Positions 4,148 to 47,699 of a stretch of 64,000 nt of DNA are shown one piece after another. The translations under genes and the position numbers were made by a program. Where the stretch lies: the NCBI RefSeq assembly GCF_002812955.1, contig NZ_PFXK01000003.1, forward strand, positions 434,001 to 498,000, given 5' to 3'. How positions within the stretch are numbered: position 1 is the stretch's first letter; each line of letters begins with the position of its first letter. The DNA comes from Vibrio sp. HA2012. GTDB taxonomy: Bacteria > Pseudomonadota > Gammaproteobacteria > Enterobacterales > Vibrionaceae. The notes beneath the pieces are model-generated. The model worked only from the letters and a program-made list of their open reading frames with translations. It had not been told where the DNA came from and made no database searches.

Positions 4148-4389
4148 CTATTATCAGACAGGGAAGTCCGGAACGATTATGAATACAGGACAAATTACGG
4201 TGGTTGTTATTCCAATAAAAATAGAGCGTTTACCCTCAGCTAAATAAAAGAAATCGCTGATACGCATAAAAATCTATCCTTATTTTCACATCAATCAAGC
4301 GATAAAAGATCACAAAAAAATACGGCACAGCAGAAAACCGATTTTTTATCATACATAACTAAAAAAAGGCTATCGCTAATTAAAATAAC

Positions 4390-4428
4390 CGGAAACATGA
4401 TCAAGAAGTTCACTTGATCATGTTTCCG
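4390..4428. repeat. Perfect 16-bp inverted repeat made of two head-to-head RctB-type sites
   Basis: CGGAAACATGATCAAG (4390-4405) is followed after seven bases by its exact reverse complement (4413-4428). Both arms contain the ATGATCA iteron core. It lies at the parA2-proximal end of the control region. Confidence 0.85.
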
Positions 4429-4451
4429 AGAATAAACCAAACAGAGGAAGC

Positions 4452-4785
4452 ATGATCAAGGGCATTTACAGAGTAAACAAAAACAACAGATCCGGATCTT
4501 ATTTCCGGATCAATGATCAAGGTAAAGTATTTCCCGGAAGCATGGAAATAAAACACTAACTTACGGCCAATGCCAGATATAATGGGGTATACAGGAGTTC
4601 TCCTGAGCATAACTCTATGATTCAGGTAAGCAACAAGGCAAAAAAACATATACAGTATCCCTTGATCATAGTTACGGAAAATCCGACAACTCAGCAGACA
4701 TCCCTGATAAAAAGGCGGCAAAATAAAACTGGTGACAAAAGCATCAGGAAAAGCGAAGAAGACAAAAATAACTCTTCTTGATCAT
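4452..4785. promoter_or_regulatory. Scattered RctB-binding sites of the control (rctA/inc-like) region
   Basis: ATGATCAAG occurs at 4452-4460 and 4513-4521 on the plus strand and at 4661-4669 and 4777-4785 on the minus strand. The seven preceding bases are related in each (AGGAAGC, CGGATCA, CGTAACT, CGGAACA), giving an extended consensus near CGGAAnC-ATGATCAAG. In V. cholerae such sites titrate RctB and limit initiation; that role is inferred here. Confidence 0.75.
4561..4572 (+). promoter_or_regulatory. TTACGGCYAATG element, copy 1 (candidate RctB regulatory site of the 39-mer type)
   Basis: TTACGGCCAATG lies inside the control region. A copy differing only in one pyrimidine sits directly in front of rctB (5176-5187). 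V. cholerae has iteron-unlike RctB sites in exactly these two places (39-mers in the control region, a 29-mer in the rctB promoter). Assignment to that class is inference; I could not compare with the actual 29/39-mer sequences. Confidence 0.4.
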
Positions 4786-4845
4786 TGTTCCGCTGGCAAA
4801 AAAACATCATTTACAGTCCAATCATCCAAAAATTCAGCGATGGCC

Positions 4846-4854
4846 TGTGGATAA
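4846..4854 (-). promoter_or_regulatory. DnaA box
   Basis: TGTGGATAA is the exact complement of the consensus DnaA box TTATCCACA. It stands 15 bases left of the iteron array, as expected for the DnaA-dependent chromosome-II origin. Confidence 0.85.
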
Positions 4855-4868
4855 GCTGTTAAGCCACC

Positions 4869-4990
4869 ATGATCATCACTCCATCAGAACATTGATCATT
4901 TCTCCGGATCTACCATGATCATCGATTCCAGTTATATTGATCATGCTTGCAGAATGTTATTGATCATCGTTCTGAACTATCCTTGATCAT
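4869..4990 (-). repeat. Six phased RctB iterons of the minimal origin
   Basis: TGATCA cores start at 4870, 4893, 4916, 4938, 4961 and 4984: spacings of 23, 23, 22, 23 and 23 bases, or about two helical turns. All six can be read in the same minus-strand orientation, as ATGATCA followed by TGG, ATG, TGG, ATA, ATA or AGG and preceded by a purine-rich stretch often carrying GGA or AGAA. All contain a Dam GATC site. This is the RctB assembly platform for opening the adjacent AT-rich DNA. Confidence 0.9.
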
Positions 4991-5050
4991 GTTTCTGAAG
5001 AGGTTATTTTTTTTCTTATTAAAAACAATCAGATACGAGAAAAAGACCAC

Positions 5051-5160
5051 TCAGATCAATAGATCATATAATCAATAAAGATCAAAATAATCAAAAAGAT
5101 CAGTTAAAGAAAAAATAATTTTTTTCTCTTTATTTATGATCTTTTTTTCTTTAATCTTTT
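5051..5160. other. DNA-unwinding element with ATCA ladder
   Basis: This segment is strongly AT-rich. Its first half carries six ATCA tetramers on the plus strand, starting at 5055, 5063, 5071, 5081, 5090 and 5099 (8-10 base steps). RctB has been reported to bind single-stranded ATCA repeats in the V. cholerae unwinding element. Poly-A and poly-T tracts follow up to the rctB leader. Confidence 0.75.
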
Positions 5161-5175
5161 GGAACGATAGCAATA

Positions 5176-5187
5176 TTACGGCTAATG
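5176..5187 (+). promoter_or_regulatory. TTACGGCYAATG element, copy 2, at the rctB start
   Basis: TTACGGCTAATG ends four bases before the first rctB ATG, so a protein bound here would block the rctB leader. It matches the copy at 4561 in 11 of 12 bases. It is a candidate for the autorepression site of RctB. Confidence 0.4.
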
Positions 5188-5191
5188 AGAA

Positions 5192-7180
5192 ATGGATCAC
5201 AAGATGAAGGCAGACGATAAGATACTCATCAAAGCACCACGCAGTCATAAAGATGGGCATTTGTTTGAAGTATCAGACAATATTATTGACTGGATAGAAC
5301 AGTATCAACATTTCAAAGGTGTGACCAAAAGTATTATTGAACTGCTGAATTTGATCTCGTTACAAGGGCTGAACAGTACTGATGGTTATGTCTCAACCAC
5401 ACAACTAGTTGAGGCAACTGATCGAAGGTTAACACGTGCCGCTATTCAGCAACGTCTAAGAGCTGCTGTCAACATAGGTTTGTTCACTCAAACTCCTGTC
5501 AGATTTGAAGAAGGTTTAGCCGGTAAAACCATGTTGCACCGTTTTGTTAATCCGAGCCAGCTTGTATCTATGTTGGGAGTAACCAGCCTGATGACAGAGT
5601 CAACGAAACAGACGGAAAAACAGAAACGCTCAAAAGCATTGGCCCAAACTCAGGTAAATCGTCGTTTGCTGAATGAATATGGGTTAAATACACCACCGGT
5701 GATGAAAGATGAAAAAGATCAGTTCGTAGTATCACCAACGAATTGGGCTGGGATCATCGATCAGGCTCTGGCGCCGCCAAGAACCCGGAAGAGTTATCAA
5801 AAAAGCATGGTTTCCATATCAGGATCCCGTGCCATCATTGAGACCCGATCATCAAAAAACATCATGACAGTCGACGATCTTATGACGTTGTTTGCGCTCT
5901 TTACACTGACAGTACAATATCATGATCATCAACAGGAAAGTTATCAGCTTAATGCCAGTCAGGTTCCGAATAAAACGCCTCTGTATATAACAGATATTCT
6001 CTCCATGAGAGGGAAAAAAGATAGCGGACCTGCCAGAGATGCTATCAGGGACAGTATTGATCGTATTGAATTTACTGATTTTCAGTTACATGAGCTGGCC
6101 GGGCGCTGGATGAGCGAGAATATGCCAGAAGGCTTTAAGAGTGATCGTTTCCGTTTTTTGGCTCGTACGATCACTGCTTCTGAAGAAGCGCCTTCGGAGA
6201 ATGCAGCCGGAGAGATCCGGATCAAACCTAATCTGTACATTTTGGTCTGGGAGCCTTCTTTCTACGAAGAATTACTGACCCGGGACTATTTCTTTCTGTT
6301 TCCTCCTGAAATTCTGAAACAACATACGCTGGTCTTTCAATTGTATTCGTTTTTCCGTAGTCGCATGTCCCGGCGTTTTACTGATAGCATGCTTCTGAGT
6401 GAATTGAATCAAAAGTTAGCCAGAAATATTGAATGGCGGCGTTTTTCTTCTGAATTGATCCGTGAACTGAAAAAGTTATCAGAAGGGAAAGGTGGAGACG
6501 ATCTTTTTGCGGTGAATTTGTGGGGATATCATCTGACGTTGAGTCAGACCGAAGCAAAAGGTAAGGTTTGTGATTATCAGGTCGATATTCGTTGTGATGT
6601 AGAAGAAGTGCTGCGTTTTTCCCGGGCCAGAACGACTAATGCCGGTAAACGTAATATGGCACCAACTCTGCCTAACCCTTTACGTAATGAAATGATCTCT
6701 AAGAAAAAGCTGGAAGAGTTTGCTGAAATTATCGATGGTGAATTTGAGCCGATCCAGCGAAATGCGGTATCTTCTGGCGGAAGATTAGGGCGCCGGGTTA
6801 AGCAGAGAAAGCATCTGGTCGAGATCAATGCGGATGAACTGACGATCACGTTATCTAAATATACTTCACCAGAAGCTCTGGAACGCAGTATAACGGCTCT
6901 TTCGGCCATGACTGGCCATCCCCCAGCCTTAATCAGAGATGAGTGTCAGGAGCTGATTGAGAAGCTGGATTGGCTAAGAGTCGGGGGAGATATCATGCCT
7001 CATTCCACGTTGAGTAAAACGATAGAATTATTTAATAGCCAGTCGGAATCTAAACATCTGTCGATAGAACGACTGATATCTGGGCTGGCAGTAAGAAGAA
7101 AAGTATGTAAGCAGATATTTGAAGGTCACATGAGTGAAGATGTTTTTTTGACACTCGATGAGGTTGCTGTCGGTAATTGA
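5192..7180 (+). CDS. rctB: Chromosome II replication initiator RctB
   Basis: RctB is the vibrio-specific initiator of chromosome II. It binds methylated iterons at oriCII, melts the adjacent AT-rich DNA and recruits the helicase, and its own level is autoregulated. The 662-residue frame follows recalled V. cholerae RctB throughout, including HKDGHLFEV near the N-terminus, winged-helix regions in the middle (GIIDQALAPPRTRKSYQKSM, ITASEEAP) and HLSIERLISGLAVRRKVCK at the end. The second ATG, at 5204 (MKADDKIL), would give 658 residues, the V. cholerae length, and may be the true start. An intrinsic terminator follows at 7328. The origin lies directly upstream. Confidence 0.96.
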   Translation: MDHKMKADDKILIKAPRSHKDGHLFEVSDNIIDWIEQYQHFKGVTKSIIELLNLISLQGLNSTDGYVSTTQLVEATDRRLTRAAIQQRLRAAVNIGLFTQTPVRFEEGLAGKTMLHRFVNPSQLVSMLGVTSLMTESTKQTEKQKRSKALAQTQVNRRLLNEYGLNTPPVMKDEKDQFVVSPTNWAGIIDQALAPPRTRKSYQKSMVSISGSRAIIETRSSKNIMTVDDLMTLFALFTLTVQYHDHQQESYQLNASQVPNKTPLYITDILSMRGKKDSGPARDAIRDSIDRIEFTDFQLHELAGRWMSENMPEGFKSDRFRFLARTITASEEAPSENAAGEIRIKPNLYILVWEPSFYEELLTRDYFFLFPPEILKQHTLVFQLYSFFRSRMSRRFTDSMLLSELNQKLARNIEWRRFSSELIRELKKLSEGKGGDDLFAVNLWGYHLTLSQTEAKGKVCDYQVDIRCDVEEVLRFSRARTTNAGKRNMAPTLPNPLRNEMISKKKLEEFAEIIDGEFEPIQRNAVSSGGRLGRRVKQRKHLVEINADELTITLSKYTSPEALERSITALSAMTGHPPALIRDECQELIEKLDWLRVGGDIMPHSTLSKTIELFNSQSESKHLSIERLISGLAVRRKVCKQIFEGHMSEDVFLTLDEVAVGN

Positions 7181-7222
7181 ATCTGAGCGGATATTTTTTC
7201 CGGACACAAAAATGACAGTACC

Positions 7223-7253
7223 TTGACATTGGATGTTCAGAGAAATTTATACT
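7223..7253 (+). promoter_or_regulatory. Candidate promoter downstream of rctB
   Basis: A perfect -35 TTGACA (7223-7228) is followed after 19 bases by TATACT (7248-7253). The spacing is long, so strength is uncertain. It would start transcription near 7260, inside the rctB-to-7695 gap. Confidence 0.35.
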
Positions 7254-7259
7254 GAATCC

Positions 7260-7358
7260 CGAATAGACAACCTTTAGGCCTTCTGTTTATCGGAAGAGCT
7301 TGTTTATAACATCCATTCATAATGGTTTAGCGGGTCAGTAAGTACTCGCTATTTTTTT
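7260..7358 (+). ncRNA. Possible small RNA between rctB and the next gene
   Basis: Between the candidate promoter (7223-7253) and the terminator (7328-7358) lie about 100 bases with no reading frame. An internal hairpin (CTTCTG / CGGAAG, near 7279-7295) precedes the terminal hairpin. The layout fits a trans-acting small RNA ending in a rho-independent terminator. The alternative is that this is merely the 3' UTR of rctB. I see nothing else in the rest of the 7181-7694 gap. Confidence 0.3.
7328..7358 (+). terminator. Intrinsic terminator downstream of rctB
   Basis: TAGCGGGT (7328-7335) pairs with ACTCGCTA (7344-7351) through eight pairs, one of them G-T, around the loop CAGTAAGT, and is followed by seven T residues. 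Confidence 0.8.
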
Positions 7359-7694
7359 ACCTGTCGTTTCGGTATGATGCAACGATGATCAGGGTAAATC
7401 AGTCTTTACGCCTTGATTCTGCTTGCAGAATTTCGTCTTTTTACTTTGAATTATGTGATAACGGTAACTTGTTATATGTATGGCAGCGCATCGCCCCAGT
7501 GTTCAGATTTTCTGCGGGATGAACCAGTAAAGATAATGCAGAATTAGCCGATGTACAAAAGCTTAATAACAGATTGAACAGTTAAGTGTCGGAAGTTATG
7601 CCTGCTTCACATTCTGGATCAGTTTTGCTTAACAAGAATATACCCCTTTGCTAAATAGTCAGTGTCCCTGACGTGGTTTTGTTCGGAGGTGTAT

Positions 7695-7889
7695 ATGTCG
7701 ATTAATTCCTTAAACCATGAAGAAATGTCAGATAGAGCATCAACCTGGGATCCTAAAGAAGAGGAATCCAGGCTGTCTCCCAGACAGGTGAAATCTGCAC
7801 AGGCACGACGTCGTATTGAGATGATGAAAGATCTGCGTGAAAGCGGGTTAACCATGGAAGAAGCAGAGGAAATGGGGCTGCTGGACTGA
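7695..7889 (+). CDS. Small charged protein, function unknown
   Basis: A 64-residue protein (MSINSLNHEEMSDRAS...) with start ATG 7695 behind a good Shine-Dalgarno GGAGG (7685-7689). It is very hydrophilic, with a basic patch (SAQARRRIEMMKD) followed by an acidic helical tail ending MEEAEEMGLLD, and has no signal peptide or membrane segment. The pattern loosely recalls short PA3496-type proteins, but that is a weak resemblance. It sits alone between two terminators (7328 and 7935), so it is probably monocistronic. Strong ribosome site and coding-like composition support it as a real gene. Confidence 0.65.
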   Translation: MSINSLNHEEMSDRASTWDPKEEESRLSPRQVKSAQARRRIEMMKDLRESGLTMEEAEEMGLLD

Positions 7890-7934
7890 GTTTGACGTTT
7901 GCCTGACAGAGTGTAACTTAAGTTTTTAATAGAT

Positions 7935-7960
7935 GGGCGACATTATGTCGCCCTTATTTT
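7935..7960 (+). terminator. Intrinsic terminator
   Basis: GGGCGACA-TTA-TGTCGCCC (7935-7953) is a perfect 8-bp hairpin followed by TTATTTTG. It ends the 64-residue gene. It also shows that a longer frame opening at 7933 is not the real start of the next gene. Confidence 0.85.
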
Positions 7961-8025
7961 GTTTCTGTAATCTACTTTATGCTATATTTCTGCACCACGT
8001 AAGGCGACTGACTGGAACGGGAACT

Positions 8026-8235
8026 GTGTCAATTAATTTATCTTTACTGCCTCCGGATGAGAAAAATCAAATAGAGCTTGATAAGCAGGCTTCGTTTTTG
8101 GTGTGGAGATTGAAACAGGCAAAAACAGGGTCGGATGCTATTGCTGCTAAGTTGAGGACGATCCGTAGTGAACAGGAACAGGCTTGGTTTACACAGTCGG
8201 TGGAAAAATACAAAAAAGTAATGGGTGTTGCTTAG
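8026..8235 (+). CDS. Conserved small vibrio protein, function unknown
   Basis: A 69-residue protein starting at GTG 8026 (SINLSLLPPDEKNQIELDK...). GTG was chosen because upstream codons would run back through the terminator at 7935 and because GGAACGGGAA precedes it. The sequence is hydrophilic and helical, rich in Lys, Gln and Glu, and ends EKYKKVMGVA. I recall similar small proteins next to the YebC-like gene on chromosome II of other vibrios, without an assigned role. It lies 64 bases upstream of the YebC-like gene and may be cotranscribed with it. Confidence 0.65.
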   Translation: MSINLSLLPPDEKNQIELDKQASFLVWRLKQAKTGSDAIAAKLRTIRSEQEQAWFTQSVEKYKKVMGVA

Positions 8236-8299
8236 TACGATTGTATAAAATACCCCTTTTCTTTGCATTGAAACAACATTGAATTAGAGAGAACTCCCG

Positions 8300-9019
8300 A
8301 TGGGAAGAAGTTTTGAAGTGCGCAAAGCCTCTATGGCAAAAACACAAGGCGCAAAAATTAAGGTTTATTCTAAATACGGTAAAGAAATTTACGTTTGTGC
8401 TAAAAACGGTGGGGCTGATCCTGATACCAATTTATCACTTAAGCATTTGATTACAAAGGCAAAAAAAGACCAGGTTCCTGGCCATGTTATTGATAAAGCT
8501 TTGGATAAAGCGGCAGGTGGCGGTGGTGAAGATTTTCAGCCCGCACGCTATGAAGGCTTTGGCCCGGGTGGTTGCAGTGTGATTGTCGACTGCCTGACTG
8601 ATAACGGTAACCGTACGTTTCAGGATGTTCGTCAGTGCTTTGTTAAAAATGGCGCTAAAATCGGTAGCCCGGGTGCAGTGTCTCACATGTTTGACCACCA
8701 GGCTGTATTTCAGTTTAAGGGCGATGATGAAGAGTCTGTTCTGGAAATGCTGATGATGGAAGATGTAGATGTGGCTGACATCGAGTGTGAAGATGGTGTT
8801 ATTACAGTATTCACTCCTAATACAGAATTCTTCAAAGCAAAAACAGCACTGAGCGGGCAATTGTCTGATGTAACACTGGATGTAGAAGAAATTACGTTTG
8901 TTCCACAGAACTATACTCCGATTAGTGGGGAAGATGTCGAGCAATTCCAGAAGTTTCTGGATATGTTGGATGACTGCGATGATGTACAGCAGGTATATCA
9001 TAACGCAGAGCTTGATTAA
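8300..9019 (+). CDS. YebC/YeeN-family protein (TACO1-like), chromosome II paralogue
   Basis: A 239-residue member of the YebC/PmpR/TACO1 family. YebC proteins have been linked to transcription regulation and, more recently, to relief of ribosome stalling; which applies here is unknown. The sequence opens [27 protein letters not shown] and carries the family core [44 protein letters not shown] and the acidic C-terminus [12 protein letters not shown]. The divergent N-terminus makes it YeeN-like rather than a canonical YebC. It is followed by a bidirectional terminator and a parS2 site. Confidence 0.88.
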
Positions 9020-9045
9020 GCCACTGCATTCAGCAATATAATAAT

Positions 9046-9073
9046 AAAACAGCCGGGGTATCCCGGCTGTTTT
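9046..9073. terminator. Bidirectional intrinsic terminator
   Basis: AAAACAGCCGGG (9046-9057) and CCCGGCTGTTTT (9062-9073) form a perfect 12-bp stem with a GTAT loop, flanked by A and T runs. It serves the convergent YebC-like gene and the chemoreceptor gene. Confidence 0.88.
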
Positions 9074-9074
9074 A

Positions 9075-9087
9075 TTTACACTGTAAA
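9075..9087. promoter_or_regulatory. parS2: parS2 centromere site, second copy
   Basis: TTTACACTGTAAA matches the parS2 core exactly; with flanks it is a 15-bp perfect palindrome (9074-9088). It lies between convergent genes, directly after the terminator hairpin and about 4.9 kb from the first copy. Confidence 0.85.
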
Positions 9088-9095
9088 TTGGTTCC

Positions 9096-10760
9096 TCAGA
9101 CAGTAAATCTGTCCACTAGCTCTGCCAGATCTCTGGCTTTAAAACTCAGCAGTTCACCACCTTCCCGATTTTGTCCGGCAATGATAGCTGTCTGATTACT
9201 CTGTTCTGAAATAAATTCAACCCGTTTGGAAATATCATTACCGACCTGACTCTGTTCTTCGGTTGCTGTTGCAATCAGATCGTTCATATCCATAATAACG
9301 TTAATTGAGTTTTGGATTTTATTCAGGGCTTCTCTGGCTGCACTGGCCTTATCGACAGTATCCGTGCTACGGTTCAGCCCCACTTCCATTGTTTTTACGG
9401 CAGCATCAGAAGCTGACTTGAGCTGTTCAATAACCTGATGGATTTCCTGTGTGCTTTCCTGAGTCCGGCTGGCCAGCTTGCGTACTTCATCCGCAACGAC
9501 GGCGAAGCCTCGGCCCTGTTCTCCTGCACGGGCAGCTTCTATCGCAGCGTTCAGTGCCAGCAGGTTAGTCTGCTCAGCAATGTCCTGAATGACCAGCAGC
9601 GATGATGAGATATTCTGTACATTGCCTTCCAGCTCAGAAACAACTTCATTCGCTTTAGCCACATCGCCTGCTAGAGCCTGTACTGATTCTGCCGCCGACA
9701 TAAAGATTTCTGTGGCTTCTGCTGTAGTGTCTTCTGCTTCTTTAGCTGCCTGAGCCGCCTGACTGGCATTACTGGATATTTCGCCAGCAGTCGATGTCAG
9801 TTCCGTCATCGCTGCAGCAACCTGCTCAGTTTCCTGCCGTTCGGATTCTATCAGTTCGTTAACCTGAGATGCCCGTCCGGCCATATTCTGTGTTTCCTGA
9901 GAGACTTCGTTACTGACTTCGGAAACGTTTTTAATAATAGACTGCAGTGAAGTAACAAATGCATTGAAATTATTACTCAGGACAGAAAATTCAGGAATAT
10001 TGAAACTTTCCATCCGGGCTGTCAGATCAGCATCTCCGCTGGCAAACTGGGCAATAGAGCGGTCAAACGTTTTCAATGGACGGATAATGCTCTGGTTGAT
10101 CGCTATAGCAAACAGTCCTGCAAGTACAATGATGACAAAAGAGATAATCGCGATGGATTTCACACTGTCTATGGATTGCTGGTCAGCAATAACCTCCATT
10201 TTTTCAACAACCTTCTCTACATTATCGATGTAAAACCCGGTACCAATAACGAGATCCCACTGAGGATAGTAGATAGAATAACTAAGTTTCGGTGAAGATT
10301 CTGTTTCTCCCGGTTTAGGGAAAAAATAGGTAGTAAATCCGCCGCCTTGCTTAGCCTGTTTGATGATTTCCTGAACCAGATAAAGCTTAGTTGTATCCTG
10401 AAGGTTCCAGAATGTATCACCAATGCCTTTGTCACTTGTTCCAAGAAGGAGTCTGACCCCCTTAGAATCGTAACCGAACAGGTAGCCTTCCGTGCCGAAT
10501 TTTATCTGTTTCAACTGGTTGATGGCATCTTCCCGGGATGCATTAGTGTTTTTTAACTGGGTAATGGATGAGTCGGCGATTTCCAGATAAGCCTTAAGTT
10601 CATCCTGTTTTGTTTTCATGATGGTATCTTTTGTGGATACCACGTGTGTGGCATTCATCTCTTTCAACTCTGAATAGGTAAAGAACATCATGCCGACAGA
10701 GATAATCAGGATAGGTACGATAGCCAGAATATAGAGCCTGGTTTTAATAGTGAAGTTCAT
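9096..10760 (-). CDS. Methyl-accepting chemotaxis protein with single Cache sensor
   Basis: A 554-residue transmembrane chemoreceptor. A first membrane helix (about residues 9-28, [17 protein letters not shown]) is followed by a periplasmic single-Cache type 2 sensor ([29 protein letters not shown]), a second helix ([17 protein letters not shown], near 203-220), a HAMP region and a signalling domain whose hairpin tip reads [34 protein letters not shown] written here only as its core [13 protein letters not shown]. It signals to CheA/CheW in the polar array. The ligand is unknown; sCache-2 sensors often bind small organic acids. Single gene, convergent with the YebC-like gene. Confidence 0.93.
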
Positions 10761-11009
10761 AGTTACGTCCTAGTTATGCTTCCAGTAAGGGGTGTTGCTT
10801 TAATGTTTTTTTTGTGAATACGTATAATTATTATCCGCTATATATGTTAAAAAGCGAGAATAATTATAGAGGTTAATGCCGAAATTGTGGGGTCAGTGAT
10901 ATTTTCTGTTGAGGTTAATGTTGCGTTTAAGTGGTGAAGCTTTAAAACTCCGCCATACTTATACTGAGGTTACTTCGTATAATATGTGTGGCACGGAGAG
11001 GTTCGTATT

Positions 11010-11261
11010 ATGAAAAATGAATTGGATCCTGAAAGATTGCTAAAAGCGTACGAAACGGTTATGGATAAAGGGACACCAACGGAATTTGGTAAAATTTATG
11101 AAGGTGTAGAAGCTTTTTCTGATTATGATGGTTATAACGTGTATATGCGTGGTAATGGAGTAGAACTAAGGGTGGGATTCCATAATACTTATCATCTGGA
11201 ATATGATCAGGAACATCTGCGGGACAGTTTTCTGAAAAAAGTAGCCATGTTATCTAAATAG
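11010..11261 (+). CDS. DUF3081 family protein
   Basis: An 83-residue soluble protein starting MKNELDPERLLKAYETVMDKG. ATG 11010 was chosen because GGAGAGG (10995-11001) stands eight bases upstream; a longer frame would include that site. The opening MKNELD and the later AFSDYDGYNVYMRGNGVELRVGFHNTYHLEYD fit the DUF3081 family of vibrios and relatives, whose role is unknown. TATAAT at 10978-10983 is a plausible -10 box, though it would leave a leader of only about 20 bases. A clear terminator follows. Confidence 0.75.
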   Translation: MKNELDPERLLKAYETVMDKGTPTEFGKIYEGVEAFSDYDGYNVYMRGNGVELRVGFHNTYHLEYDQEHLRDSFLKKVAMLSK

Positions 11262-11278
11262 CCATAGTGCCTGTATCT

Positions 11279-42387: not shown

Positions 42388-42717
42388 AACGCGATCCTTA
42401 TAAATATCATCATAAACGTGGTTGTTTGGCTTACCGGATACAACATATATGCCAAAATTTAAGTAGTTTTTTATTTTTATTAAATTGTTTATTTAGGTTA
42501 TTTATTCTGATGTTTTGCGGATTTACTGGTCGTTCTATTTGTTTTATTCGGTTTTTTTCAGAGACAAGTATTTGAATGGATATTTCAGTGCTAAAACGAC
42601 AATCTCTGCACTGTACCGGTGCATAGGTTTGTCTTATCTCAGGATGTGAGATTTGAATTATGCTTGGCGTTATATTATAACGCTTATGTTTTTACTGAGT
42701 ATAACTGGTTTATTTAT

Positions 42718-43395
42718 ATGCATACTATGCTGAAAACGTTGTTTTTACTATATCTTAGTCTGATGATATTTGTCTGCTCCGGTTCTGTTCAGGCTCATCC
42801 TCATTCCTGGGTAGAGATGAAAACCTATGTTCAGGGTTCAGAAACCCTGGTCACCGGTTTTCAGATGGAGTGGGTTTTTGATGCCATGACCACTGCATAC
42901 ATGTTGGATGGTGAAGATCTGTCTCCGGAACATCAACAAGAGTCACTGCAAACATTGGCCGATGAGATGCTGGCTAATATGTTGGGTGATCATTATTTCA
43001 CTTATTTTTATGATGAAGATAAGCCTATCCGGTATCTGGAAGGCAGAAATGCACAACTTTCTCTTAAGCGTGGGAAAGGTGTTTTTTCTTTTGATCTCCC
43101 TCTGGTAAAACCTCAACCGATTACGGAATCAGCGTTGAAGTTGTTGATTTTTGAACCCAGTTATTATGTTGATATGACATGGAAGCATCCGGCAGACGTT
43201 ATATTATCGGATGCTCTGGCTAAAAATTGCAGTATAGAAATGGTAGAGCCAAATCCAACACCGGAACAGATGAACTATGCCCTGTCTCTGCCATTAGATG
43301 CTGATCCGGATAATGCTCTTGGTCAGTTGTTTACTCAAACAGTCCGGTTCCATTGCGTATCGCCGACAGATACTGAAGAGGCTATTCATGAATAA
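42718..43395 (+). CDS. DUF1007 periplasmic protein associated with NicO transporter
   Basis: A 225-residue exported protein. The signal peptide (LKTLFLLYLSLMIFVCSGSVQA) is followed by mature AHPHSWVEMKTYVQG, the usual start of DUF1007 proteins, whose His-rich N-terminus probably binds a transition metal. Further family features are FQMEWVFDAMTTAYML and LLIFEPSYYVDM. ATG 42718 or 42727 may be the start. It overlaps the NicO-type transporter gene by eight bases, so the pair likely handles one metal (Ni, Co or Zn). The 42388-42717 gap shows only AT-rich leader DNA. Confidence 0.82.
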   Translation: MHTMLKTLFLLYLSLMIFVCSGSVQAHPHSWVEMKTYVQGSETLVTGFQMEWVFDAMTTAYMLDGEDLSPEHQQESLQTLADEMLANMLGDHYFTYFYDEDKPIRYLEGRNAQLSLKRGKGVFSFDLPLVKPQPITESALKLLIFEPSYYVDMTWKHPADVILSDALAKNCSIEMVEPNPTPEQMNYALSLPLDADPDNALGQLFTQTVRFHCVSPTDTEEAIHE

Positions 43396-44308
43396 GGCAG
43401 TATTTCCGTTTCGATATTACCTGAGTACAGTGCTGGTTTTTGGATTTTTAGGATTAATGGCCTATCAGCTCTGGCTGGCGTGGCCACAGATTCTTCTTGG
43501 CAGTATTAAATGGCAGAGAGAGATTAATGCTGAGTTAAGTGATCTGCTTTATGATGCAAAAGAGAATAGCCTTGCGGCTGGCATCTCTTTGGCCGGACTG
43601 AGTTTTCTTTACGGTATTCTGCATTCTGTCGGACCAGGGCATGGTAAGGTTATTGTTACCACTTTTCTGGCAACGCATCCCAGTAAAATTAAACATGGCC
43701 TGATATTGACGATTTTGTCGGCCTTTATGCAGGCGATTGTTGCTACTGTTCTGGTTTCTTCTTTAGTTATTCTTTTCAGTCATTCTATGCGGGATGTGAG
43801 CAGTAAGGCTGATTATTTAATTAATGCCAGTTTTCTCGCAATGTCTTTGCTTGGAATTACTATTTTGTGGCGTACATCAAAAGCTATTTACTATTATCTG
43901 AAGCATCACAAGTACAGTGCCGGATGCCACTGTTGTCATTGTGTTTCAGGTAGCCAGTTGAATCAGGCCATGAACTGGAAATCTTACGTAGGAATTATTA
44001 TCAGTATCGGTATTCGTCCTTGCTCTGGTGCTATTCTGGTACTTCTTTTCTCTAATGTTGTGGGGATTTACTGGCTGGGTATCGTGAGTGCATTTCTGAT
44101 GGCAATCGGTACGGCTATCACCACATCGACAATTGCTCTGATGACTATTTCCGGGAAAAAGGTTATTCAGCGTTATCTAAGAGCTGAAAATCATCAGCAT
44201 AGTTCACTTGGTAGCATGGGGCTGCAATTTGTCGGTGGTATCTTACTGACCTTGTTGGGTATCATTTTATACAGTTCACAAACATACAGTATGTCACCAA
44301 TATTCTGA
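43388..44308 (+). CDS. NicO/RcnA-type nickel-cobalt transporter
   Basis: A 306-residue membrane protein with six or seven helices. Family signatures are YGILHSVGPGHGKVIVTTFLATH and SIGIRPCSGAILVLLF. A cytoplasmic or periplasmic loop contains the metal-ligand cluster GCHCCHC near residue 180. NicO members import or export Ni2+/Co2+. ATG 43388 sits within the last codons of the DUF1007 gene, showing translational coupling. Confidence 0.86.
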   Translation: MNKAVFPFRYYLSTVLVFGFLGLMAYQLWLAWPQILLGSIKWQREINAELSDLLYDAKENSLAAGISLAGLSFLYGILHSVGPGHGKVIVTTFLATHPSKIKHGLILTILSAFMQAIVATVLVSSLVILFSHSMRDVSSKADYLINASFLAMSLLGITILWRTSKAIYYYLKHHKYSAGCHCCHCVSGSQLNQAMNWKSYVGIIISIGIRPCSGAILVLLFSNVVGIYWLGIVSAFLMAIGTAITTSTIALMTISGKKVIQRYLRAENHQHSSLGSMGLQFVGGILLTLLGIILYSSQTYSMSPIF

Positions 44309-44343: not shown

Positions 44344-44372
44344 TTGACATGGAAATACTTCTGGATTAAAAC
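44344..44372 (+). promoter_or_regulatory. Candidate promoter of the glycyl radical enzyme operon
   Basis: TTGACA (44344-44349), a 17-base spacer and TAAAAC (44367-44372). The -35 is perfect and the spacing ideal; the -10 is weaker. Transcription would begin near 44379, inside the inverted repeat. Confidence 0.5.
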
Positions 44373-44402
44373 TTATTTGTGCGCAATAACGCACAAATAA
44401 GT
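44371..44402. promoter_or_regulatory. Perfect 13-bp inverted repeat at the glycyl radical operon start
   Basis: ACTTATTTGTGCG (44371-44383), loop CAATAA, then the exact complement (44390-44402). It ends 20 bases before the start codon and covers the predicted transcription start, suiting an operator. Followed by TTATTTC, it could also act as a weak terminator for the upstream transporter gene. The TGTG and CACA cores are spaced too far apart for a CRP site. Confidence 0.6.
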
Positions 44403-44421
44403 TTATTTCAGGAGTCAGAGT

Positions 44422-46794
44422 ATGGAAGTCACGGAACGTATTGAGCGGTTACGGCAAAATTATGTTAATTCAAAACCTTCGATCTGTTACGAACGAGCGA
44501 AGATCTACACGGATTCACATAAACGGACCGAGGGGCAACCGGTTATTCTGCGTAGGGCTCAGGCGTTTTCTGACTTTTGTAATGAATTTGATATCAAAAT
44601 TTTCCCTGACGAGCTGATTATCGGTACGGCCGGTAAGTTTCGCCGTACCGGGATCCTGACGCCTGAATACTCATGGCGCTGGGTCGATAAGGAGATGGAC
44701 ACCTTTGCTACCCGTCCTCAGGATCCTTACCAGATGACGGACGAGCAGCGTAGTGTGGTGCGGTCAGATATCTTCCCGTACTGGGAGGGTAAATCTCTTG
44801 AAGAACATTTTCTTTCTTTGCTACCTGAAGAGACGGCCAGGATTGCGGTCGATACCGGCATTATCGATAACGATTCAAAATGGCGTCAGGCGGTGGGTGA
44901 GATCACGCCGGATTATGAAGGGCTGCTATTTAAAGTGGGCTATCGTGGGGTGTTGCAGCAGGCTGAGGAAAAACTGGCTGAGCTGGATTATCTGAGCGAT
45001 GAGAATATCGACAAGATTAATTTCTATCAGGCGACCATTTTAACCGCTAAGGCGATCATGACGCTGGCGAACCGGTATGCCGGGCTGGCGGAGCAGATGG
45101 CAGAACAGGAAACAGATAGCCAGCGCCAGGCTGAATTGCTGGATATTGCCCGGGTATGTAAGCGGGTACCGGAACATCCGCCGGAAACTTTCCATGAGGC
45201 GATTCAGTTTGTCTGGTTCGTGCAGTTAGGCGGCATTATTACTGAAAACCCGCTGGCTCTGAATCCGGGTCGCTTCGATCAGTATATGTATCCTTATTAT
45301 GCTGCCGATATAGAGGCTGGTCGTCTGGAAAAAACGCAAGCGAAAGAGCTGATCCATGCGTTGTGGCTGAAATACTCCGAGTGGGTCTGGACCATTTCGG
45401 AAAATACCACCGGGTACTTTGCCGGGTATAACCAGTTTCAGAATCTGACTGTCGGCGGAAAAAAACGTGACGGATCCGATGGTACCAATGAGCTGACTTA
45501 CCTTTGTCTAGAAGCAACGGACGAAGTACGTACTCACCAACCGGGGCTGAGTGTCCGGGTGCATTCTGACTGTCCGCCGGAATTTTTGTATGCGGTGACG
45601 GATCTGGTCAGTAAAGGAACTGGTTTTCCGGCTATCCATAACGATCAGGCTGGTACGCAGATGCTGCTTCAGGCCGGTTATGAAGCGGAAGATGCCAGAG
45701 ACTGGAATAACTGCGGTTGCGTGGTGCCTCATTTCCGTAAAACCGGTCAGTGGACATCGGCGGTGAACGTGAACTTTGTGGCCGCCATGGAATACGCTCT
45801 GAATCAGGGGAAAAGCCGTCTGACCGGAGAAAAGCTGGGGCTGGATGCGAAACCTGTTCAGGAATACACCAGCTATCAACAAGTGCAGGATGCGGCCTTT
45901 GAACAGGTCGGTAACCTTATTTATCACTCTGTGGTCGCGACGGTTGTTGCGCAAAAACTTCACTCACAAATGGTACCAAGACCATTCCTTTCTACCTGTA
46001 TTGAAGAGTGTCTGACTACGGGGACTGATTTGTCGCAGGGTGGAGCAAAATACAATGTGGGTCCGGTACTTACCGGTATTGGTCTGGCCGTTGTTGCGAA
46101 CTCGCTGGCGGTGATTAAGAAACTGGTCTTTGAAGATCAGGTCATCACTCTGGCTGAACTGGACGCCGCGATGAATGCCGACTGGGAAGGCTATGAAAGT
46201 CTTCGGGACAAGGCTCTGGATGTGGTGAAGTACGGCAATGATGACGACTATGTGGATTCCATTGCCCGGGATCTGGCGAACTATTACTACCGTGAGACCC
46301 GCTCTTATAAAGATATCTTCGGCTCGAACTTTAATTCGGCATTTATGGGGATCTCTAACTATATCCCGACCGGCCGGATTGTCGGTGCGACGCCATGTGG
46401 ACGGAAAGCGAAAAAACCGATCACCGAAGGGGTATCCCCTTATGCTGGCAGTGATGTCAGCAGCCCGCTGGCGGCGATGCGTTCCAGTGCCAAGATGAAT
46501 CATGATGTGCATACAGGCGGCACCTTGCTGAACCTGCGTCTGAGTGAGGATCTGGTCAGCACGCCAAAAGGCAAACGGGATCTGGGCAATATTATTCGTG
46601 CTTATTTCTCTCTGGGTGCATTCCATGTGCAGTTTAATACTCTGTCAACCGAGGTGTTGCGTAAAGCACAGGCAAATCCTGAAGAGTATAAAGATCTGCT
46701 GGTGCGGGTGGCTGGTTATAGTACCCAGTTTGTGAACCTGTCTCCGGAAATGCAGGAAGCGATCATCGCCCGTTCCGCTCACGGAGCCATGTAA
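44422..46794 (+). CDS. Glycyl radical enzyme of unassigned subclass
   Basis: A 790-residue glycyl radical enzyme (PFL-like family). The radical glycine is G765 in RVAGYSTQFVNL; the catalytic loop is NNCGCVVPH with C433 as thiyl cysteine and a second cysteine at 431. Eliminases and decarboxylases of the family (glycerol, propanediol and hydroxyproline dehydratases, choline and isethionate lyases) have GCVE here; this enzyme has V435 in place of that glutamate. Other family segments (RALSF-like RAQAFSDF, PGRFDQYMYPYY, QGGAKYN, GATPCGRKAKKP) are present. It is followed by its own activase (one-base overlap). The substrate is unknown. The gene is much GC-richer than the transporter before it. SD AGGAG. 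Confidence 0.9.
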   Translation: MEVTERIERLRQNYVNSKPSICYERAKIYTDSHKRTEGQPVILRRAQAFSDFCNEFDIKIFPDELIIGTAGKFRRTGILTPEYSWRWVDKEMDTFATRPQDPYQMTDEQRSVVRSDIFPYWEGKSLEEHFLSLLPEETARIAVDTGIIDNDSKWRQAVGEITPDYEGLLFKVGYRGVLQQAEEKLAELDYLSDENIDKINFYQATILTAKAIMTLANRYAGLAEQMAEQETDSQRQAELLDIARVCKRVPEHPPETFHEAIQFVWFVQLGGIITENPLALNPGRFDQYMYPYYAADIEAGRLEKTQAKELIHALWLKYSEWVWTISENTTGYFAGYNQFQNLTVGGKKRDGSDGTNELTYLCLEATDEVRTHQPGLSVRVHSDCPPEFLYAVTDLVSKGTGFPAIHNDQAGTQMLLQAGYEAEDARDWNNCGCVVPHFRKTGQWTSAVNVNFVAAMEYALNQGKSRLTGEKLGLDAKPVQEYTSYQQVQDAAFEQVGNLIYHSVVATVVAQKLHSQMVPRPFLSTCIEECLTTGTDLSQGGAKYNVGPVLTGIGLAVVANSLAVIKKLVFEDQVITLAELDAAMNADWEGYESLRDKALDVVKYGNDDDYVDSIARDLANYYYRETRSYKDIFGSNFNSAFMGISNYIPTGRIVGATPCGRKAKKPITEGVSPYAGSDVSSPLAAMRSSAKMNHDVHTGGTLLNLRLSEDLVSTPKGKRDLGNIIRAYFSLGAFHVQFNTLSTEVLRKAQANPEEYKDLLVRVAGYSTQFVNLSPEMQEAIIARSAHGAM

Positions 46795-47699
46795 TGGGGA
46801 AAGAGGTATCCTCCGGCGTTGTTATTCAGATGCAGGATTACTCCATCCATGACGGGGATGGAGTAAGAACCACGATCTTTCTGGCTGGCTGTGGCCTTCG
46901 GTGTCAGTGGTGCGCGAATCCTGAAAGCTGGACGAAGAAACCCAAGCTCGCCTTTTATGCACATAAATGCTCGCAGTGTCACAGCTGTGAGCCAGTGTGC
47001 CCACAGAGCCTTAAACCATCCAGTAATGAATTCGATCTGAGTGATTGTACCTTGTGTGGCGCATGTGTTTCGGTATGTCCGGAAAAAGCGTTAGAGCTGG
47101 CCTGTTCAGATACCGATGTCGAATCCGTTATGCAGAAGATCCGTCGTGATGAGCTGTTTTTCCGCCATACAGGTGGCGGGGTGACCTTTTCCGGCGGAGA
47201 GCCGTTTTTGCAGCATCAGTTTCTGCGGCAGTTAATGGCGGGCTGTGAACAGCTTGGTGTTTCTGTCTGGGTGGAAACCTGTGGCTTTTTTAACTGGAAA
47301 CAGTGTCAGGATCTGATGTCTGGAATTGAACATGTGTTTTTTGATATCAAGCACATGGATGAACAGGTGCATGAGCAAGTGACGGGACAAAGCAACCGGA
47401 CTATTCTGGACAACGCGCGAAAAATGCATGAACTGGGTGTGCCGATGACGATTCGTGTGCCTTTAATCACTGAAGTGAATCTGGATGACGACAATCTGCG
47501 TGCCACCGCCGAGTTCATTCGTGAATATCTCAGTGGAAGCACCATTGAACTGCTGCCATATCATGAACTGGGCAAGGCGAAATACATGGCTTTCCGCATG
47601 GATGAAGTGTTTCATTCATTTACTACACCGACGCCGGAACAGGTAGAAAAGGCGTATGATGTTTTTTCCGGGTATCAGATCCGACGTTATATGGGGTGA
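46794..47699 (+). CDS. Glycyl radical enzyme activating enzyme (radical SAM)
   Basis: A 301-residue radical SAM activase that abstracts hydrogen from the glycine of its partner. The radical SAM cluster motif CxxxCxxC is C33, C37, C40. Two ferredoxin-like clusters follow (C59, C62, C65, C69 and C85, C88, C91, C95), typical of activases of non-PFL glycyl radical enzymes. GGGVTFSGGEPFLQ is the SAM-binding glycine-rich part. Its ATG overlaps the stop of the enzyme gene by one base. Oxygen-sensitive, so expected to act under anoxia. Confidence 0.93.
   Translation: MGKEVSSGVVIQMQDYSIHDGDGVRTTIFLAGCGLRCQWCANPESWTKKPKLAFYAHKCSQCHSCEPVCPQSLKPSSNEFDLSDCTLCGACVSVCPEKALELACSDTDVESVMQKIRRDELFFRHTGGGVTFSGGEPFLQHQFLRQLMAGCEQLGVSVWVETCGFFNWKQCQDLMSGIEHVFFDIKHMDEQVHEQVTGQSNRTILDNARKMHELGVPMTIRVPLITEVNLDDDNLRATAEFIREYLSGSTIELLPYHELGKAKYMAFRMDEVFHSFTTPTPEQVEKAYDVFSGYQIRRYMG

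Follow-up and report, generated by a model that had tools for sequence, protein, structure and literature searches.

What reaction is left to a glycyl radical enzyme (GRE) that lacks the glutamate two residues past its thiyl cysteine, the residue that marks the CXE-type eliminases? The question is raised by a stretch of 64,000 nucleotides from Vibrio sp. HA2012 (contig NZ_PFXK01000003.1, positions 434,001 to 498,000), referred to here as the window, which encodes a GRE with the loop NNCGCVVPH (RDWNNCGCVVPHFRK) and Cys433 at the thiyl position. The protein matched PF02901 (9.8e-224) and PF01228 (2.8e-30); its RVxG[FWY] motif, its central thiyl cysteine and an adjoining radical-SAM activase gene place it in the GRE superfamily. 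We report that GREs with this loop form a clade of their own and that the gene is linked to a SutR-type regulator, and we tentatively propose that the enzyme cleaves the C-S bond of a sulfur amino acid.

Of 580 candidate loci from a scan of public genomes of bacteria and archaea, 80 were kept. Seventy-two of these plus the window (73 loci) constitute the family. Among the loci kept, family members were 56-86% identical to the window GRE, and the nearest proteins came from Cohaesibacter and Oleispirillum (85%) and from Anaerotignum (79-80%). The remaining eight loci (L093, L095, L098 and L100-L104) showed 38-41% identity and all had a GCVEP loop; above 41% no other loop than that of the window occurred among the loci kept. 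The motif [NS]NCGCVVPH was present in all 66 full-length aligned rows, an invariance that is due to selection, since these rows had been picked by NCGCVVPH. Short or unrecovered rows were left out, as was that of L035, for which the other of its two GREs had been taken by mistake. Position 435 was valine in 66/66 family rows versus glutamate in 16/16 outgroup rows, an outgroup that omits the row of a pyruvate formate-lyase (PFL; L002, CCVSP loop) and the misassigned L035 row. The loss of the CXE glutamate, pointed out for this protein in a preliminary description of the DNA, is real and conserved.

In a maximum-likelihood tree, 35 family rows were monophyletic (100/100). Their sister group among the GREs compared, again at 100/100, consisted of two rows from one other genome that, at 1522 and 1276 bits, passed the CutC model; the outgroup was small, and a long-branch warning applies to other parts of the tree. 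The NCGCVVPH GREs are thus a distinct clade, separate from the characterized classes compared. Clustering inside a characterized class, the outcome that the preliminary description had named as speaking against a new reaction, was not seen, the loops of solved GREs having been compared in part. In agreement with this, the window GRE scored 746 bits against the CutC model (cut-off 1050), exceeded the cut-off of the broad NCBIfam model TIGR01774 only and passed no equivalog cut-off among those shown. Gly765 was invariant across 44 aligned rows, so that none of the replacements by which the AARE class is defined (Ala, Ser or Thr at the radical glycine; PMC11528403) is present. No paper on the clade or its loop was found in the one open-access library searched, from which most subscription journals are missing.

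The clade spans several phyla and includes genomes from gut and rumen metagenomes, fermenting Bacillota, Synergistota and some Pseudomonadota. Among sampled genomes, 4/391, 15/197, 17/199, 2/151 and 5/120 contained a 24-base pattern for NCGCVVPH, counts that include the centre genomes and genomes already known; the reversed control pattern gave no match in the tabulated results for the same samples. The family GRE was not found in 36 same-genus genomes tested, where the best other matches reached 37% or less. This absence, together with the matches in distant phyla, suggests that the window GRE was acquired horizontally. For five pairs, pS was 0.76-0.90 versus a pN of 0.09-0.14, with synonymous sites saturated and hence no dN/dS value; by itself the pattern fits purifying selection. 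In L096/L170 the family GRE is broken into two overlapping open reading frames (ORFs; 413 and 377 residues), owing to a frameshift or a sequencing error. The genome of the window (3.76 Mb; C1, C4, C12 and C15) encodes five PF02901 GREs, the other four being one PFL (ACCVSP loop) and three of the CXE type (GCVEP, GCVEL and GCIET).

The GRE and activase genes are both intact, and the stop codon TAA of the first (46792-46794) shares one nucleotide with the ATG of the second (46794-46796). The activase gave radical-SAM and Fer4 matches, the latter at about residues 56-103, and fitted TIGR02494 best, which bears out the double ferredoxin insert noted previously. Over the 73 family loci the GRE cluster was recovered 69 times, the activase cluster 67 times and an XRE-cupin regulator 36 times, counts that are lowered by missed ORFs (e.g. 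GC-rich antisense ORFs in L027, L049 and L083). Mining of 73 + 25 + 6 neighborhoods, of which the 25 + 6 partly re-fetch the same genomes and L167-L168 were seen incompletely, revealed no widely shared partner besides activase and regulator. The earlier idea of a process encoded by only two genes holds for the enzyme unit; it had overlooked the regulator gene and a conserved operator. The features are compiled in Table 1.

Table 1. Positions of the features of the GRE locus within the window
Feature	Position	Strand	Basis or remark
SutR-type operator, perfect palindrome of 36 bp (arms of 15 bp, centre of 6 bp)	44369..44404		Just upstream of the GRE gene
GRE of the NCGCVVPH clade, 790 aa, CGCVVP loop	44422..46794	+	ORF, Pfam/NCBIfam, model, tree
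Glu160 codon	44899..44901	+	Site of CutC Asp216, HypD His160, IslA Gln193, PFL Arg176; invariant 66/66
Cys431-Gly432-Cys433 codons	45712..45720	+	Cys433, thiyl cysteine; Cys431, site of CutC Met487
Val435 codon, position of the eliminase CXE glutamate	45724..45726	+	V 66/66 vs E 16/16
Gly765 codon, radical glycine of RVAGY	46714..46716	+	Invariant column; PF01228
Cognate radical-SAM activase, 301 aa, two-cluster ferredoxin insert	46794..47699	+	Pfam/NCBIfam; cluster in 67/73 family loci
XRE-cupin regulator (SutR/YdcN type), 175 aa	48105..48632	-	Cluster in 36/73 family loci

The operator has the sequence AAACTTATTTGTGCG-CAATAA-CGCACAAATAAGTTT. Its 20-bp core, TTGTGCGCAATAACGCACAA (44377-44396), matched nothing else in the window at up to 3 mismatches (0 in 100 shuffles), and in the whole genome the GRE promoter was the only match at up to 2 mismatches. 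The core motif was also present upstream of the GRE or the regulator gene in Pseudomonadota and Bacillota loci. Among the 66 loci with sufficient upstream DNA (7 of the 73 were dropped), a site with at most 4 mismatches occurred in 18/36 loci with the regulator versus 1/30 loci without it (Fisher 2e-5), and order-1 Markov shuffles of the regulator-containing regions matched that count in 0.06%. At up to 5 mismatches the numbers were 25/36 versus 1/30; when the GRE promoter was considered alone, they were 13/36 versus 1/30 (Fisher 0.0017). A genome-wide scan with the core gave matches in 19 of 27 genomes, and 18 of the 21 distinct places were the GRE locus. The reversed control pattern matched 7 times over the 27 genomes, and the three places off the locus were within chance. 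Regulator and operator are linked with the GRE.

Which signal such a regulator might sense was approached through its relatives. The window's regulator and eight further GRE-linked regulators were 33-42% identical to SutR (YdcN) of Escherichia coli versus 19-23% to PuuR. The recognition-helix residues and the cupin residues Ser115, His118, Glu124, His158 and Tyr175 were common to SutR and all nine regulators, and cupin Glu101 was kept in the window's protein and in seven of the eight others; PuuR retains only Glu124 and His158 of these cupin positions. The operator is nearly identical: the ydcO-sutR spacer of E. coli contains TTGTCCGTTATAACGCACAA, with 1 mismatch to the core, and a further site at 4 mismatches. 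In its recognition helix, in the residues of its cupin pocket and in its operator, the regulator is of the SutR type. It also strongly matched PDB 1y9q (200 bits), a Vibrio cholerae protein that is listed with Zn (PMC2684688) and carries bound D-methionine (PMC7901475). According to the latter source, XRE-cupin factors of Pseudomonas are local, specialized repressors, three of which have had their palindromic motifs determined, and the known signals come from the regulated pathway.

Of 60 other genomes of the same genus, 24 contained a homologue of the regulator, and 13 of the 24 loci were fetched. In all 13 this gene and a YdcO-like gene (38-48% identity to YdcO) point away from each other with two operator copies in between, which is the ydcO-sutR arrangement of E. 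coli; CGCVVP was not encoded in any of the 13 stretches. Whereas SutR thus faces a BenE-type transporter gene in E. coli and its homologues do so in these loci, the window's regulator adjoins the GRE unit, downstream and on the opposite strand. The regulator-GRE-activase cassette recurs in the Synergistota loci L187-L190. The window's regulator shared 53-60% identity with 11 of these 13 homologues, compared with 33-40% for the aligned GRE-linked regulators of Bacillota and Synergistota. Because it is nearer to the former, the regulator may not have moved along with the enzyme in every case.

An AlphaFold2 model of the GRE, a step that the preliminary description had suggested, was of high confidence (pLDDT 91.8, pTM 0.92; poor at residues 645-650). 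The best solved match was CutC (TM 0.98, 39% identity, Z 56.6, rmsd 1.4 over 788 residues), followed by the propanediol, glycerol, hydroxyproline and N-methyl-hydroxyproline dehydratases; identity to any listed solved GRE was 39% at most. The residues of the CutC choline site (PMC12838924) were mapped onto the window GRE by HMMER alignment. Phe389, Phe395, Cys489, Thr502 and Ile700 are kept as Phe333, Phe339, Cys433, Thr445 and Ile644. In contrast, Tyr208, Asp216, Thr334, Met487, Glu491, Tyr506 and Leu698 are replaced by Ser152, Glu160, Leu278, Cys431, Val435, Asn449 and Met642, so that of the residues characteristic of CutC (Asp216, Glu491 and Tyr208) a carboxylate at the first site is all that is left. 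Position 449 was Asn in 54, Ser in 11 and Thr in 1 of the 66 rows. Glu160, Cys431, Cys433, Val435, His437 and Thr445 were invariant (66/66), and the first two of these had escaped the preliminary description. The site of Cys431, Met487 in CutC, belongs to the largest active-site cluster in PMC12838924. That of Glu160 touches the substrate in CutC, HypD and IslA (site equivalences from PMC8473560); in the 16 outgroup rows it holds a carboxylate in the two CutC rows only and His in the other 14. The predicted pocket is mostly hydrophobic and contains one carboxylate and, besides Cys433, another cysteine. Since the eliminase-defining residue is lost and yet the active site is strictly conserved, the clade probably performs a chemistry not yet described.

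The loop glutamate is missing in PFL (seen in L002) and, according to the preliminary description, in X-succinate synthases too, and genes of 2-oxoacid metabolism lie near some family members; a 2-oxoacid formate-lyase or an adding enzyme like the X-succinate synthases has to be considered. PFL shares with the window GRE the superfamily and the glycyl and thiyl sites, but the two proteins are only 20% identical, and the activase with its ferredoxin insert sets the window's system apart. In a profile alignment with the PFL of the same genome, Cys418 of the adjacent Cys418-Cys419 pair corresponds to Gly432, and the carboxylate-binding Arg176 and Arg435 correspond to Glu160 and Asn449. These replacements make PFL chemistry unlikely, and a PFL-like 2-oxoacid lyase was rejected on the arginine and cysteine sites, as the preliminary description had anticipated from the missing Cys pair. 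The fold, too, is nearer to CutC-type eliminases than to X-succinate synthases (Z 44.0 at best) or PFL (Z 36.6). Of the small accessory subunits that go with X-succinate synthases, a BssC-like one (PF08201) was present in 0/35 genomes, although no control genome gave a match either. Taken as a whole, this explanation is hardly to be expected. With Glu160 in place of Arg176, the site would rather suit a cation, and the predicted pocket would suit an ammonium-bearing substrate.

An invariant carboxylate at another substrate-contacting site means that loss of the loop glutamate does not by itself exclude elimination. The enzyme might be a CutC-like eliminase for a sulfur-free small amine or amino acid (threonine, serine or ethanolamine-like compounds), in which the catalytic carboxylate has moved from the Cys loop (Glu491) to beta-strand 1 (Glu160) and ammonia or an amine leaves the carbon next to the carbinol. 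The sister position to CutC, the retention of Thr502 and of both Phe residues, the carboxylate shared at the Glu160 site with the CutC rows alone and amino-acid genes near some members would all fit, and in HypD another acid can serve as base (PMC7077986). The SutR-type regulation, which indicates sulfur compounds, and the retention of the loop glutamate throughout the outgroup are at odds with it, and no aldehyde-handling or shell genes were recognized in the neighborhoods viewed, in a search that was not systematic. We consider such an eliminase unlikely, though clearly less so than a PFL-like or adding enzyme.

The preliminary description had left open whether a C-C or a C-X bond is processed. 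The SutR-type switch would favor a reaction at the C-S bond of a sulfur amino acid, and that the substrate belongs to this class has, in our estimate, a little less than an even chance. If the ligand is indeed of this class, the simplest chemistry that does without the CXE glutamate and without partner enzymes, and makes use of the second cysteine, would be base-free beta-scission of the C-S bond. We therefore propose the following scheme, to which, with its full mechanism, we assign a probability of roughly 35%. The locus would be a self-contained anaerobic catabolic unit. The SutR-type XRE-cupin repressor would occupy the palindromic site of the GRE promoter until a sulfur amino acid is present, its cupin pocket resembling the one in which the V. 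cholerae homologue binds methionine, and would then be released. The activase would put the radical on Gly765, from where it would pass to Cys433, while Glu160 would hold the alpha-ammonium group of cysteine, an S-substituted cysteine or methionine in the mostly hydrophobic pocket. The Cys433 thiyl would abstract a hydrogen from the carbon beside the sulfur-bearing one (C-alpha in cysteine or S-substituted cysteine, C-beta in methionine), whereupon the C-S bond would cleave by beta-scission. This step requires no general base, which would explain the absence of the CXE glutamate. The freed thiyl would regain a hydrogen through Cys433/Cys431. Cysteine-type substrates would give aminoacrylate, and from it pyruvate and ammonia, plus sulfide or a thiol; methionine would give vinylglycine/2-oxobutyrate and methanethiol. 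No further dedicated enzymes would be needed, because these products would enter central metabolism directly. C-S cleavage by a GRE has a precedent in IslA (PMC8473560), the isethionate sulfite-lyase (IslA/IseG), which like the DHPS sulfolyase HpsG differs from the window GRE in acting on sulfonates and shows 32-33% identity to it.

Several observations weigh against this C-S lyase proposal. The regulator was not seen in 37 of the 73 loci, and in 6 of the 73 a GntR gene directly upstream of the GRE replaces it; in L177 and L191, too, a GntR gene lies directly upstream of the GRE. Half of the loci with the regulator (18/36) had no site at up to 4 mismatches, and the promoter of the window's regulator gene has none. 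Loci with the regulator offered two promoters to the search, those of the regulator and the GRE, so that the contrast for the GRE promoter alone is the weaker one, and all of the operator statistics ignore relatedness among loci. The D-methionine in 1y9q may come from the expression host. The role of SutR in sulfur utilization is taken from the title of a cited paper, and YdcO is what we take to be a cysteine importer; Pfam assigns YdcO and one same-genus homologue to BenE (benzoate transport), and therefore the ligand that they have in common may be one without sulfur. CutC and the other eliminases, the nearest relatives, cleave C-N or C-O bonds in carbinol substrates. IslA/IseG and HpsG retain the loop glutamate, and to our knowledge so do the known C-S-cleaving GREs in general. 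Finally, most neighboring genes are not conserved.

The invariant second cysteine at an active-site position would also fit a reductase, in which the Cys431/Cys433 pair (i/i+2) would form a disulfide and give electrons as in class III ribonucleotide reductases, so that the substrate is cleaved reductively with a general thiol reductant. Many members are, to judge from the names of the organisms, amino-acid fermenters in need of electron sinks. No redox partner occurred among the widely shared neighbor clusters, however, and we regard this possibility as very improbable.

Pyruvate:ferredoxin oxidoreductase genes lie beside the GRE in L064 and L066, and L051 has genes resembling those of methionine biosynthesis (by eye). 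A run of ilvD-leuA-leuC-leuD-leuB-AAA-ilvA-ilvE is located directly upstream of the GRE in the Mogibacterium-type loci L072, L077, L078 and L097, as read by eye except for the leuA-like and AAA genes of L078 (Pfam); ilv/leu genes are recurrent but minor among the neighbors. The oxidoreductase, ilvA/ilvE-like and methionine-type genes fit pyruvate/2-oxobutyrate or methionine metabolism; they are few and could be coincidental. An oxidoreductase gene upstream of the GRE in L155 was dropped, the sense frames being MATE-, Hsp33- and LysR-like ORFs (by eye). Aspartokinase-like genes are near the GRE in L074 and L075 (L157 is L075 re-fetched).

M20 peptidase genes (clusters 11 and 27) occurred in 9 of the 73 loci, in 7 within a few genes. 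Those beside the GRE in L038, L045, L064, L066 and L069, with cluster members in L038 and L064 that resemble glutamate carboxypeptidase, bear on a further explanation: an amino acid might undergo C-C cleavage without a base or have its carbon skeleton rearranged, for instance by a reaction like that of glutamate mutase but independent of B12, and the loop glutamate would likewise be unnecessary. In L062 (positions 4350-11277; a metagenome-assembled genome of Tissierellia) the GRE cassette is followed by genes for a B12-binding protein, MutL, MutE, methylaspartate ammonia-lyase and fumarase C. Methylaspartate ammonia-lyase was encoded in only 9 of 51 GRE-carrying genomes, that of the window not among them, and the same 9 hold a B12 mutase E chain above the cut-off. 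Replacement of glutamate mutase, an idea prompted by L062, is weakened by this co-occurrence and by the absence of both from the window's own genome, and C-C chemistry altogether appears improbable to us.

Other neighbors were seen in single or few loci. A DUF5058 protein and an unnamed protein of about 230 residues (cluster 130) are encoded beside the GRE together with M20 peptidases in L045 (16249-17688) and L047 (13373-14781) and are perhaps an uptake system; a cluster 130 gene is also near the GRE in L177. In L068 (13272-21083) the activase is directly followed by a four-gene block with DUF6063 and a 1484-residue ATPase-like protein, possibly a Wadjet-type defense module (by eye). L035 has a second, longer GRE (902 residues, decarboxylase-like by size) with a small ORF and an activase; only a few ORFs separate it from the GRE of the family. 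In the window, a DUF1007 protein and a NicO-type metal permease are encoded directly upstream of the GRE promoter (42619-44308).

Overall, the interpretation given in the preliminary description is partly supported. The SutR-type switch allows a rational guess at the substrate class that can be tested with a short list of compounds. It is rather doubtful, though conceivable, that the clade represents the first GREs to split a proteinogenic sulfur amino acid, or else a simple cysteine S-conjugate, at its C-S bond by base-free beta-scission, as a cassette spread by gene transfer that would provide an anaerobic source of H2S or methanethiol independent of pyridoxal phosphate. If the sulfur reading is true, anaerobes would have an added pyridoxal phosphate-free route to H2S or methanethiol.

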